Position numbers and translations under genes: made by a program. The notes below the pieces were generated by a model. That model was not told where the DNA came from. It saw only the letters and a list, made by a program, of their open reading frames with translations, and did not search any database. Shown here one piece after another: positions 3,190-17,140 of a stretch of 23,177 bases of DNA. How positions within the stretch are numbered: position 1 is the stretch's first letter; every line of letters starts with the position of its first letter. Source of the stretch: Chromera velia (Eukaryota > Sar > Chromeraceae); assembly GCA_018398765.1 (NCBI GenBank), contig JAHBMJ010002065.1, positions 1 to 23,177 of the forward strand. The letters are read 5' to 3'.

Positions 3190-3700
3190 GGGTCTCCTCA
3201 CATAAATAATAGTAAATAATTAATTGATCTAAATCAATTTATCCCCTTAATCTTACATAAATAGTAATACATCAGATAATACATCATGATATACCTAACA
3301 TAGTTAATCAACATTGAAGTTGACGATACATCATGATTGTGATCGAGCCAAACCTATCAATCAATCAATCAATCAATTAATCAATCAAGTAAAAAATCAA
3401 TACTATATATTGACCAGAGCCTAAAGTGGTGGCTCACCAGTACTCACCAGCTTTAACCGTCTCAATTCATTCAATTCCCAAAAAAAAATCAATATATATT
3501 TCATAATATCTCCAAATAAAATGTACAAACAAATCATGTATGGGCCAGGGCAGCATAGCGAGCAACAAACACATACATATTGTTTCATTGTCAATGTGTG
3601 CACAACGGCGGCACTATGAATTAATTCACAACTCAAAACATTTAATGCGATAAGTGGACGGAATCATGTAGGAATGTAAACACCGGATTCCACGCTGTGA
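3190..3700. other. AT-rich intergenic island with TCAA microsatellite
   Basis: Composition drops abruptly to AT-rich, unlike the genes on both sides. It includes a (TCAA)n run at 3357-3388, repeated TACATCATGAT-like words near 3284 and 3327, and an A8 run near 3480. The open frames here are short and AT-driven. No terminal repeats of a mobile element could be established. Confidence 0.55.
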
Positions 3701-12188: not shown

Positions 12189-12213
12189 AACTTACCTACA
12201 CCAATCCTATAGT

Positions 12214-12451
12214 GAACCCCCCTGACATTCCAGTAAACTTGAAACGCCGCGCCGTAGGCGCGGCCAGACTTGAATCGCCTGCGCTACAGGCGCGGCTTAA
12301 CTTGAAGGTAATGTGTTGAAGGCGCGGCCAAAATAAAGTACACTTAAAATTTTTTGTGGAAGGCGCAGACAGTCTTGAAAGAACCACGCCGCAGGCACGG
12401 CCAGCATTAAAAAATCTATTTTAAGACAGACTGGAGTATCAGGGGGGTTCC
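12214..12451. mobile_element. Short MITE-like element nested in the left TIR of the larger relic
   Basis: Both ends read GAACCCCCCTGA inward and continue to TCCAGT; 19 of 21 terminal bases are inverted-identical (12214-12234 and 12450-12430). ATAGT flanks it on both sides (12209-12213 and 12452-12456). Deleting the element plus one ATAGT restores the outer terminal repeat, which shows it is a later insertion. The interior is GC-rich within AT-rich DNA and carries several GGCGCGGC and CTTGAA words. It includes a perfect hairpin with 8-base arms GCCGCGCC/GGCGCGGC and a GTA loop (12246-12264). Confidence 0.8.
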
Positions 12452-12973
12452 ATAGTATTACACAAAGTTAATTATGTAACAATTACCCCTAACCCCCCCT
12501 TTGTTACACATAGAAGTGTATAACAAGTAGTGTGCAATAATTCTAGACAAATTTTTTAACACCCAAGTGTATACGAATTCTACATAAAAAACTCTAAAGC
12601 CTGATAGCCTTTCAAAGCTATAAAATGAAGCTCTTAAAGAATCTAAACGAAACTGCATCCATCATGTGATCACCAGTCCTGTGCGTAAAACGCAGTGCAA
12701 CGGTAAAAAAAAAAAAAACGTGAAAATCCGGCATCCTGGGCGATTAGAGAGGAGTTGATCGAAACAAAAGTTGTGCTGAAAGGGACACGAGCAGAATTCT
12801 GGCCACACTTCACAGTGTGTTTAACTATGCGCTTCGGGTTGCTCACAAAGATTTTTAATGCTGCTGTGTTCCACTCGCAGCAGCCACAAATGAGAAAGCA
12901 CGTCTCCCCCTTTAAGTTCAGAAATCCGTTCGATCCGCTTCGCATTTAAACCCTCTCTCTTGTACGCATCTGG

Positions 12974-13150
12974 TCACTTCTTTTTGTACACATCCTCTGT
13001 CATAAACTTAATGTCGCAATCCTCTAGTCTCCCCCTCGCTTCTTTATGGTGAATGAACTTCCGCACCTGTCGTTCAGCAATAGTGTGCTTTCGCCCCCTC
13101 TTCTGGGAGGTTTTCTTCACTTTCCTCCCTTCGTTTTTAGCCACAGTTTA
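12974..13150 (-). pseudogene. Degenerate coding remnant inside the 1.84 kb element
   Basis: A minus-strand frame of about 57 codons between in-frame stops includes a basic stretch RGRKHTIAERQVRKF. This resembles the GRPxxLSxREER-type helix-turn-helix seen in Tc1-like transposase N-termini. The same frame continues protein-like on both sides but is broken by stops, so nothing intact is encoded. The resemblance is by eye only; the frame could be random. Confidence 0.25.
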
Positions 13151-13258
13151 AGATACAAGAACTCTTTGCTTTGGCAAACACCTGCTTTTAATGAAAGCCT
13201 GTCAGTTACCCCCTCTTTCAAAGGCTGATCGAGAGTTGATTGCTAGGCTTTGCACTAT

Positions 13259-13306
13259 AAAATTCTTAAAAAAAAAAAAAAGACTTATTTTTTTTTTTTG
13301 AATTTT
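13259..13306. repeat. Homopolymer inverted repeat AAAATTC-A14 / T12-GAATTTT
   Basis: AAAATTC followed by TT and 14 A, a six-base spacer, 12 T and GAATTTT forms a near-perfect hairpin. A second A/T structure bounded by the same AAAATTC and GAATTTT words lies at 13517-13571, although there both inner runs are T. Confidence 0.8.
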
Positions 13307-13574
13307 ACAAAACTAAAGCTTTGAGTAAAGCACTTCAATCTGTAGGTGATGATCCCCCTGATAATCGAAGGATATAAGAAATTTCTATTGCCAGCAGACC
13401 GCTGAGACCGGCAATTGCCGACAGCGAAGGGTTGTTTTCGATCAATAGAGTCTGTAGAGATCACAACCCTGCAATAATGATAAATTTAATGATCAATTTT
13501 CTATTGATTTTGTTCCAAAATTCTTTTTTTTTTTTTTAATGAGGTTATTGATTTTTTTTTTTTAGAATTTTTTA

Positions 13575-13886
13575 ATGCAGGGCCTTGGTCGATCGGTCTT
13601 AGTGAAACACAATCGAGTCTATTATCGAGATGAAGAAAGTTTTATGAACAGTCCTAAGAACAGTCAAAGGGAGTCAAATATAGTCACCGAGCATTCGACA
13701 ATATTCGACGGCATTCAACGGAAAATCAGGGAGACCGTGCGACGGCAAGAGACAAAAATAAGTAAGTTAAACTTTCAATTAACAATGAAAACGGTTATAG
13801 ATCGACTTTGGCTTAACTTGGTCTCATATATAAAGCATCTTTTCATGCAGATGAAACCTACAATTAATACACACGAAAGTGTATAA
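13575..13886 (+). other. 103-codon open frame in the transposon relic, unassigned
   Basis: The longest plus-strand open frame in the AT-rich block starts at ATG 13575 (MQGLGRSVLVKHNR) and ends inside the right subterminal repeats of the 1.84 kb element. No motif is recognised. It could be a small gene fragment or chance; it is not called as a gene. Confidence 0.15.
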
Positions 13887-14116
13887 TAATGTATTCCTAA
13901 AAATGATAGTTTGAATTAATACACACAAAAGTGTGTACTAATTCATTCATCATAATTCTATTAAAATGTATAATAAAACAATACGTAACAAAACATTTTG
14001 AAAAAAGTGATTGTGTAACACTACAGGATTGGTGTAAACTTATCTTTGAGTTATAGGCTAGGAGTCAGGACTATAAAATCAAAATCATTTGTTTTAATTT
14101 AATTATAGAGTGCACC

Positions 14117-14677: not shown

Positions 14678-17140
14678 TGGCTGCACTGTTTAATGTCCAA
14701 AGCTGTTCTTCTATTCAAAGTCTTTTAAAAAAAGTATTCAAAAAAGCAATCATTTCAACTTACTTATTATAATAACTTCTGGTATATATAGTATCTCTAT
14801 ATTGCTTTCATAAGTCTAGTCATAAGTCTCACTGCAGCCTTTCAACCTGTTACTACATGCAGCGATACGCAAGTCACCGAATATCTTTCAGTACATGATT
14901 TTTCTACCGTGACAGCCAAACCGCCAAAGCTTGACCCACTCGGGCCTGGCCAGCAGTTTCCGGATTCAGCGCGCCTCGCCCCAACCAGATGTACGCCTGT
15001 AGGCCGATCCTCAAATCCTCTAGCAAATCTGTTGATCGATCACCTTCATTCGATTGGACCTAAAACTGGACTGACTGCCTACCCAACCGACAGACAGACA
15101 CGGTTGTTGAACCGTCGTTCCGAGACCTTTCCCTTAAACCGACCGCTCTTTTCCTTCCGGAGAGCTGCACGGAGGCAGGCACGGTCTCACTGAGCGTTGC
15201 TTGCAAGATCTATTTTTCTACTCGAGCACGGGTGCAGGAGTTAGAGGTAAACCCCGAAGAGAAGACAGAACAGTCCACTGATCGTGGAGTGCTGGGAAGG
15301 AACTGCTGGCTGGGAGCGGATTTGAGCAAGAATGAGTTTTCTTCTCGAGTTTCTCTCCACGGAGGCACGAGAATGCTATTCTCGGCCAGCAGAGAGAGAC
15401 AAGGAAAGGAAGGAAGTGCATGTGACTGTGGCCCAGAGTCTGTTCATCGGTCGATCCCCTTCTGTCACAAGCACCCCCTTTCCCTCCCTCCCTTCCTCTT
15501 CCCATCTCTTTCCAAAAAAAGGAGCTTGAAAAAGATTCAGCGCAGCGCATGATAGCTCCCCTTGCGCAAGTTCAAATCTTCAAGTGCAAAGGCGGCCGTT
15601 CCATCTAACCAATCAATCGTTCGGCACATGAAATCAGATTGTCCAATAATTGTATTCTCACTTCCGCGACACACGAACAAGCACTACACAAAGCGCTTTC
15701 GTTACAAACACCCAAACCGACGTCTCCCACTTCAAATCGGGCGAAGCAATAGAGTTTTCCTTCTTTTGCGTGCATCTCGACATTCTTGGTTGGTGGTCTC
15801 CTTGAGCCCCCCTTTGGTTTTTTAGAAACGATCTCTTCAGGGGAAGAGAGGGAAAAAAAGGGGCAAAGGTACATCTGCCCGTAGCATGACGACACCCTAC
15901 TTGAGTCCAGATCTTTTGAGAGAGAGGTATGCACACGGCAGTTCGGCATACCAACCAGCAATACGACCTACAAGCAATACCAAACACGAGTCTGACTGCT
16001 CAAACTCACCCTTCTCTCCTGTCCTCTTTCCTTCAGCCAGTCGCCCTAAATTGCTCTCTCTCTCTCTCTCTTTCTGTCTTTTCATCGTTGGGTGCACCCC
16101 AATGCACCAGCATCTTTCGTTTCTGCTCACTTGAAGTGTCAAATATCATGAAAAAAAAAAAATGACCCCGGCAAGGTGCGATAGATTGCCAGACTGCTCG
16201 CGACGAGCTTCGTCCCAACTGATCTTTTTCAAAGATTCGAATGAGTCACGTTCCAAAAACCGTCTTTCTTTCCTCCACTTCTCCTCTTTCCTCTGCTCCC
16301 CGAACTCATTCATCATCGGCTTCCGCCAGCCAGTCCGTCAGTCAGTGAGGAAGCCTCACTTAGCCCAAACAAACGAGCGGAACTCAGGGAGAGCTGAACA
16401 GCTGCGGCAGGGAGGAAGGGTAGGCTCCCTTGCGCTCCCTCTTTTGCTTCTTCCCCTCCCCTCGGTTTTGGTCCCTACGAGCCAGGCCAGGACAAAAGCC
16501 GGACGGACGGACATTCAACAAAGCCCCCCGCGATCTTCTCTGCCGGTGAGTCTCCCTCTCTTCCGTTGGGCACTTTCGCCTCACGTGTGTCTGACCCTTC
16601 TCGGGGGGGGGAAACGCTGTATCTCTATCAAGAGTGTCAAAAAGTAAGTAAGCAAAGGTTGGCCGGATAGGGCCTTCAGGGATCTTTCTCTTATCTCTTG
16701 CTTGCCCTCTCTGTCATCCTCCCCCCATTCCAGCTATACGGTGGGGTGGATGAAAGACAGAAACGGAAGAAAGAGCGAATACAAAGAGACCACTCCCCTG
16801 TTTGTTGGTGCTGCCGGCCTGCAGCAGCCCTTTGAACGAAAAAGTTTGCATACCTGATTGCTTCACTCACTCCAGAATAAAAAAAGTGCGAGGATCAAAA
16901 GGAAAAAGCTTTTCTTTCTTTCTTCCTTCTCAAGAAGACTTCATTACCTTCTCTGTTCTTTTTCAAAAAGAAGCGAAAAGAAAGTCGTCAGACGTGCTCC
17001 TTCCACACGGACATTCCTTTTACTTTTCGTGCATTATCCTTTCGCCTTTTCTTTCTCCTTCTTCGTGCCCTTCTTTTCGGACATGCTTTCTTCCTCACGG
17101 TAACTTCACACCGTAGCGTCCAGCCTTCTGCTCTTTCACT
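14678..17140. other. Gene-poor interval, simple sequence and pyrimidine tracts
   Basis: The AT-rich DNA gives way near 14900 to mixed sequence with CAGACAGA, CTCTCT and TTCTTT tracts. Frames such as 14909-15193 and 16162-16647 have S/R/P-rich, low-complexity translations without recognisable domains. I see no splice-supported exon chain, tRNA or rRNA. It may be a long 3' flank of the minus-strand gene to the right, or intergenic DNA. Confidence 0.45.

Follow-up and report, generated by a model that had tools for sequence, protein, structure and literature searches.

This locus raises the question of whether the interval 12189-14044 holds the remains of a DNA transposon, and whether the order of the insertions within it can still be read. 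The window, by which we mean the whole stretch of 23,177 nucleotides that was analysed, is contig C2057 of the 177.8-Mb Chromera velia assembly (4040 contigs). It has a GC content of 49.8%, and an MCM gene adjoins the relic. The first-pass annotation had proposed a transposon relic with terminal inverted repeats (TIRs), the left of which was interrupted by a nested element. From the comparisons below we consider, with a probability of roughly 93%, that the relic is a dead copy of a large non-autonomous family, which would have moved by cut-and-paste with 8-bp duplications, and that it records a sequence of events. The features are listed in Table 1.

Table 1. Features of the relic and of the CTAG scars in the window (positions are those of the window)
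Feature	Position	Strand	Evidence
Host element, left copy of the 8-bp target duplication, AACTTACC	12189..12196	.	7/8 with 14037-14044; 8-bp duplications at sibling copies
Left TIR, outer part, TACACCAATC	12197..12206	+	
Nested element, left copy of the 8-bp duplication (target within the TIR), CTATAGTG	12207..12214	.	Nested-family copies
Nested non-autonomous element, 235 bp, TIRs AACCCCCCTGACATTCCAGT / ACTGGAGTATCAGGGGGGTT	12215..12449	+	Family copies with 8-bp duplications
Nested element, right duplication copy, CCATAGTA	12450..12457	.	Nested-family duplications
Left TIR, inner part, TTACACAA	12458..12465	+	
Host element, left subterminal region and interior; coding capacity not recognised	12466..13242	+	
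Internal element, left duplication copy, GTTGATTG (GTCGATCG in sibling L001)	13235..13242	.	
Older internal element, 345 bp, CTAG / CTTG ends, CTAGGCTTTGCAC...	13243..13587	+	Common to siblings at other loci
Internal element, right duplication copy, GTCGATCG	13588..13595	.	
Worn scar within the relic, GAACAGTC-CTAA-GAACAGTC	13646..13665	.	Alignment A1 of siblings
Right subterminal region, ACAC..AAGTGTATA-like words repeated	13837..14010	+	
Right TIR, 26 bp, intact	14011..14036	-	Genome-wide TIR matches
Host element, right duplication copy, AACTTATC	14037..14044	.	Flank comparison
Exact scar outside the relic, TCATAAGT-CTAG-TCATAAGT	14808..14827	.	

We observed that both of the proposed ends are present. 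The two TIRs had been said to match only after deletion of the insert; this is true of the inner 8 bases, whereas 17 of the 18 outer bases agree between 12197-12214 and 14019-14036 with nothing removed. When the insert 12215-12449 was left out and the left copy of its duplication was kept, the left and right TIRs agreed at 25 of 26 bases, rather than at the 24 of 26 given previously. The flanks of the relic differ at a single position, and the aged 8-bp target duplication suggested for them stands, since 8-bp duplications recur at other copies. Pfam gave no match for the relic's two longest stop-to-stop ORFs, which encode 91 and 106 aa.

We then considered the family across the genome. The 26-mer TIR, at up to 3 mismatches, gave 85 forward and 98 reverse matches (183 in all) in the 177.8 Mb, as against 0 + 0 for the reversed 26-mer. 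Copies with both ends were scanned for in 77 sequences (the window and L001-L076, seven of these being hAT loci), with up to 7 mismatches allowed at an end, and 41 were found. The 8-mers adjoining these 41 copies were identical in 12, had one mismatch in 11, two in 4 and at least three in 14; an 8-bp duplication was thus present at up to 1 mismatch in 23 and at up to 2 in 27. Among mispaired flanks (n = 20,000), by comparison, only 0.1% had up to 1 mismatch and none was exact. For some of the 14 copies lacking a convincing duplication, a small insertion in the TIR shifts the boundary. Many further copies sharing these ends and carrying 8-bp duplications, for which the first-pass annotation had proposed a search, are therefore present.

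The boundaries proposed for the element could also be supported from an empty site at one copy. This copy (L033, 556 bp) is flanked by a duplicated ATCAGGAC, and an uninterrupted relative of its target sequence was found in L021. With one copy of the duplication kept, the L033 flanks aligned to L021 without a gap at the junction and with 77% identity overall, as expected of a paralogous empty site. The TIR matches, the duplications and this empty site together indicated that the element runs TACACC...GGTGTA with a duplication of 8 bp. The target repeat of L033 looks non-LTR-like by eye, and it has no Pfam match.

Since the TIR matches stand at 183 against 0 and the 8-bp duplications recur at other copies, the ends of the relic are not due to chance, and the reading of 12197-14036 as a non-autonomous DNA transposon is confirmed, its TIRs being 26 bp long and its 8-bp target duplication aged. 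The family is real and abundant, and the relic is a further representative of a familiar transposon type, the non-autonomous TIR DNA transposon. From the duplications, the family would have moved by cut-and-paste, its transposase making an 8-bp staggered cut at the target. The closest sibling, L001, is 89% alike across all of 12453-14036. Among 22 host copies, 477 of the 817 differences from the consensus were C>T or G>A; a RIP-like signature was rejected as the source of this excess, as the rates were 0.09-0.16 in all four dinucleotide contexts. The family is apparently unnamed: the 16-mer start of the host TIR was not found in the literature searched, and the accessible portions of the literature on Chromera velia transposable elements, and on Chromera and MITEs (including PMC4501334), yielded nothing on the host family or on the scar described below.

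The borders of the insert in the left TIR were set from copies of the nested family elsewhere. It begins with AACCCCCC and finishes with GGGGGGTT, so that the insert earlier placed at 12214-12451 with a 5-bp ATAGT duplication is corrected to 12215-12449 with an 8-bp duplication, ATAGT being the inner part of the 8-mer. The two duplication copies in the window agree at 6 of 8 bases. With the left 72 bases of the nested element as the query, at least 40 matches were obtained, including the window (40 of 74 candidates were scored), and among the matches listed all but the window begin near 12214/12215. The 23 copies examined, window included, have TIRs like AACCCCCCTGACACTCCAGT; the numbers of copies whose flanking 8-mers had zero, one, two and at least three mismatches were 10, 4, 6 and 3, respectively (up to 2 mismatches in 20 of 23). 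The host TIR split between exact flanks by a gap of 230-260 bases, a pattern that diverged cases would escape, was found genome-wide only in the window. Since the split was seen only here, the nested insertion appears to be private to the window and later than the arrival of the host. The proposed order of events, host first and then the element that broke its TIR, was thus upheld by this private interruption and by the nested-family copies.

Could the outer TIR instead be a preferred landing site for other elements, with the window as one case of many? Short insertions or duplications were indeed seen at this TIR site (CCTGTAG), or close to it, in eight loci (L001, L004, L005, L017, L060, L066, L091 and L092), together with a CTAG scar at this site in L076. 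However, only two short spacer variants of the site with exact flanks were found genome-wide, a 235-bp insert between exact flanks occurred in the window only, and small insertions were also found elsewhere within copies, e.g. in L052 and L035. The genome-wide exact-flank patterns weaken the case for the TIR as a strong insertion hot spot, and we consider it improbable. The filler GTTACGATTCCT is common to the left end of L004 and the right end of L066, up to a 5-base repeat.

The second insert, which lies in the interior of the relic and is absent from the first-pass annotation, as are the scars described below, has A/T-rich inverted repeats. Its duplication is exact in L001 and reads GTTGATTG/GTCGATCG in the window. 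Among its relatives, the 8-bp duplication was exact in L107 and L111, had one mismatch in L110, agreed at 7 of 8 bases by reading in L108, and was not clear in the others; in L107, L111 and L001, where the duplication is exact, CTAG is present at one end only. One and the same target is occupied by this element in L001, L003, L005 and the window, while L006, L007 and L009 had a single uninterrupted target. From this distribution, the entry of the internal element most likely predates the spread of these host copies, which would have taken it with them as a passenger. L008 has, near 872-900, a tandem near-copy of the target, GTCGATCG-GTCGATC, with neither insert nor CTAG.

The third mark within the relic is a small one, a worn CTAG scar. 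In alignment A1, comprising 11 sequences, the scar at 13646-13665 was also seen in L001, L004, L005 and L015, as a variant in L003 and in worn form in L002, while L006 has GAACAGTC-CTAG-AAACAGTC at this site. L008 lacks 12 bases here and is the sole simple absence, L007 and L009 differing in other ways. L015 has a further 12-base gain, by reading TCAAATAT-CTAG-TCAAATAT, that its siblings do not have. We read such scars as the probable excision marks of CTAG-ended transposons.

We estimated how common these scars are in 249,942 fetched bases from 126 sequences (the window and 125 loci), a repeat-biased sample. An exact 8-bp repeat around a 4-base spacer occurred 54 times with CTAG as the spacer and 7 times with the next 4-mers, and the 54 comprised 52 different 8-mers in 38 of the 126 sequences. 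When the longest flanking repeat was determined around all 818 CTAGs, it was 8 in 51 cases, 9 in 2, 7 in 0 and 6 in 2; the fourteen other 4-mers listed had at most 2 cases at repeat length 8. The mean in 20 first-order Markov replicas, in which microsatellites are not modelled, was 0.0. A stricter filter against periodic sequence left 33 CTAG at length 8, along with 5 CTAA and 5 TTAG. The density of exact scars was 1 in 23 kb in the window, 6 in 34 kb in hAT loci, 2 in 32 kb in Merlin-type loci, 6 in 36 kb in interiors and 33 in 113 kb in host-copy loci. Six of the 96 scars with up to 1 mismatch sit where the majority consensus of 22 host copies has a single unscarred site (three of these six copies, L025, L035 and L052, belong to the 22 behind the consensus); compared with the consensus, five of the sites had 0-2 mismatches and one (L025) had 5.

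As this genome is rich in small tandem repeats, and most of the scars come from repeat-rich loci, we also evaluated whether they could be chance or repair products (tandem repeats, templated repair or assembly error). The simple-repeat spacer GTCT reached 48 against 96 for CTAG at up to 1 mismatch and came close to it, 103 against 127, at up to 2, and for this reason we have leaned on the exact or one-mismatch cases; the microsatellites missing from the Markov replicas bear on the same point. Against such an origin are the excess of CTAG among the exact repeats, the variety of the 8-mers, the peak at length 8 with a null of 0.0, the net gain of 12 bp relative to siblings at a few sites, and two complete CTAG/CTAG elements with long TIRs and exact 8-bp duplications. 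Chance or repair as the source is very improbable.

These two complete elements are 330 bp (L016) and 233 bp (L092) in length, with TIRs alike at 23 of 24 and 21 of 24 bases, respectively. They came from a scan for exact palindromes at both ends together with an exact 8-bp duplication, which gave 3 pairs each for CTAG and AGCT, 1 for CATG and none for three further palindromes. The AGCT pairs were rejected as elements (they form a single tandem array in L105, the ends of which are poorly alike), as were the CATG pair and the third CTAG pair (poor end match or no matching TIRs). A looser scan for CTAG-ended elements gave 10 for CTAG against 8, 3, 4 and 5 for the controls, and only the exact cases have been leaned on. 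We also observed that in two elements with a hAT domain (L041 and L042) the three visible ends begin CTAGTT(G/A)C (CTAGTT(G/A)CATGATGG). In each of the three, CTAG is preceded by a C, and the border may therefore be one base out; the L041 flanks had no matching duplication. These two elements are a possible lead to the source of the CTAG class.

Taken together, a class of CTAG-ended transposons making 8-bp duplications has probably swept this genome, its excision leaving both target copies and one CTAG. The transposase of this class would cut one strand at the end of the element and the other strand 4 bases inside it. Both donor ends would then carry CTAG overhangs, which, being palindromic, could anneal and be ligated to give target-CTAG-target. 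The scars therefore predict a specific cleavage geometry, a 4-nt palindromic stagger, that is biochemically testable.

Two further spacers were evaluated. The weaker class [N8]TA[N8] had 11 strict cases at length 8, compared with 1 at length 7, 0 at 9, 2 at 6 and 1 at 10. Since the host ends T...A, this class may have been left by TA-ended elements, the TACACC...GGTGTA host family possibly among them. Its sites are at 3433-3450 of the window and in L003, L015, L018, L019, L040, L041, L068, L076, L094 and L110. The arrangement [N8]AT[N8] also exceeded the Markov null (18 vs 0.4), but its lengths (5 at 7, 9 at 8 and 7 at 9) had no peak at 8, and three of the nine strict cases have the same 8-mer (L001, L005 and L015); it was rejected as a scar class.

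As to the enzyme that moved the host family, we found no transposase between host-family ends among the copies examined, and the full-length coding copy envisaged by the first-pass annotation was not among them. L004 was rejected as an autonomous copy, as it holds a reverse transcriptase (Pfam). The ORF common to L003 and L020 is reverse transcriptase-like by eye only, the L003 ORF having no Pfam match, and the two long ORFs of L019 look, by eye, like those of an LTR element; these candidates were set aside as well. No Pfam match was obtained with three further ORFs, two from L021 and one from L024. Ten interiors beside one-ended TIRs had no transposase by eye, and contained retroelement-like ORFs, N runs (two of them mostly) or nothing recognised.

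The 8-bp duplications are as in hAT elements, and the hAT dimerisation domain was matched at 7 places in the genome, so we evaluated the host family as a deviant hAT moved in trans by a hAT transposase of this genome. hAT elements prefer T at position 2 and A at position 7 of the target. Among 27 duplications, A at position 7 was seen in 14 (background 35%), while T at position 2, at 10.5 of 27, was near its 35% background. All seven hAT loci, two of which were ended early by contig ends, gave no TACACC-ended pair, and their 12-mer matches were all weak (2-3 mismatches). The ends of one hAT copy read CAGGGTTGC, and the TACAC ends of the host do not fit the hAT end consensus, C/TA(A/G)NG. A hAT affiliation is thus doubtful.

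It is more likely than not that the family belongs to one of the other superfamilies that make 8-bp duplications (Merlin, P, Zisupton/KDZ, Novosib or Mutator-like) or to an undescribed one. The host end motif is unlike hAT, and Merlin/IS1595-type domains were matched at 19 places, 18 of them over the cut-off. At 10 of these 19 matches, however, there were just five weak matches to the host TIR start (4-5 mismatches), none as a terminal pair, the termini of the loci being undefined. Two of the five, the TACACCAAG... matches of L096 and L097, were rejected as TIRs because they fall within the transposase domain; the others are one in L097 and two in L104. L098-L100 (within L096-L105) are related to one another and have inverted repeats of 85 bp. 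In the genome as a whole, the Mutator-like (MULE) transposase had 0 matches; the search used, which may miss weak ones, was positive for three prokaryotes among the 14 control genomes. The KDZ transposase and P/THAP9-like RNase H domains had 0 matches with profiles that matched no control genome either.

Returning to the relic as a dead copy of this non-autonomous family, its history would have four steps. An element would first have come to and left GAACAGTC, leaving the scar. A CTAG-ended element of 345 bp would then have entered GTCGATCG and travelled with the host during its multiplication. Next came the insertion of the host at its present site, AACTTA(C/T)C, and finally that of a 235-bp element of a third family at CTATAGTG in the left TIR, which presumably put an end to mobility. 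The scar is placed before the internal element because L006 has the scar and not the element; the order of the first two steps would thus depend on this one sibling.

With this relic, an abundant family of DNA transposons is defined in a genome that has been little studied, and four steps can be placed in relative order within a single stretch of 1.8 kb. In our view the scars matter more than the relic, and it is these scars, which form part of the history of the relic itself, that a specialist would find surprising. To our knowledge, most cut-and-paste transposons leave variable footprints or none, so that a genome sequence does not normally reveal earlier excisions. If CTAG constantly marks the joint between target copies, excision, beyond insertion, could be counted and dated genome-wide; if the reading is true, some 8,000 to 40,000 such records may be expected in the genome, a very rough figure from a repeat-biased sample. 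The scar class looks like a new form of excision mark, and nothing relevant to such a scar was found in the accessible parts of the literature on CTAG and footprints, including PMC3499496 and PMC7789003.

Compared with known systems, the relic family resembles MITEs and other non-autonomous TIR transposons in its short TIRs, fixed-length duplication, high copy number and lack of recognised coding capacity; it differs from MITEs in general in a TIR sequence that was not recognised and in its subterminal TTGTTACACA / AAGTGTATA-like repeats. With hAT it has the 8-bp duplication in common, but the ends are unlike. Zisupton makes 8-bp duplications like those of the host family (PMC12730594), although no KDZ domain was matched here by a profile that had no positive control. 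Merlin, reported in alveolates (PMC8101967), makes 8-bp duplications in some families and is represented by domain matches in this genome. In contrast, no link between Merlin and TACACC ends was seen in the 10 loci examined, whose termini are undefined.

Tc1/mariner elements leave a constant footprint from staggered cuts, and piggyBac rejoins cleanly through a palindromic 4-nt overhang (TTAA). The CTAG scars resemble these systems; however, the palindrome here belongs to the end of the element itself, the two target copies of 8 bp remain in place, and the duplication has a length of 8 bp. For the hAT element TcBuster in human cells, variable footprints are ascribed to hairpins (PMC3499496). 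Since the TcBuster joints described there are mixed, whereas CTAG is constant here, a hairpin-type hAT repair does not fit the scars.
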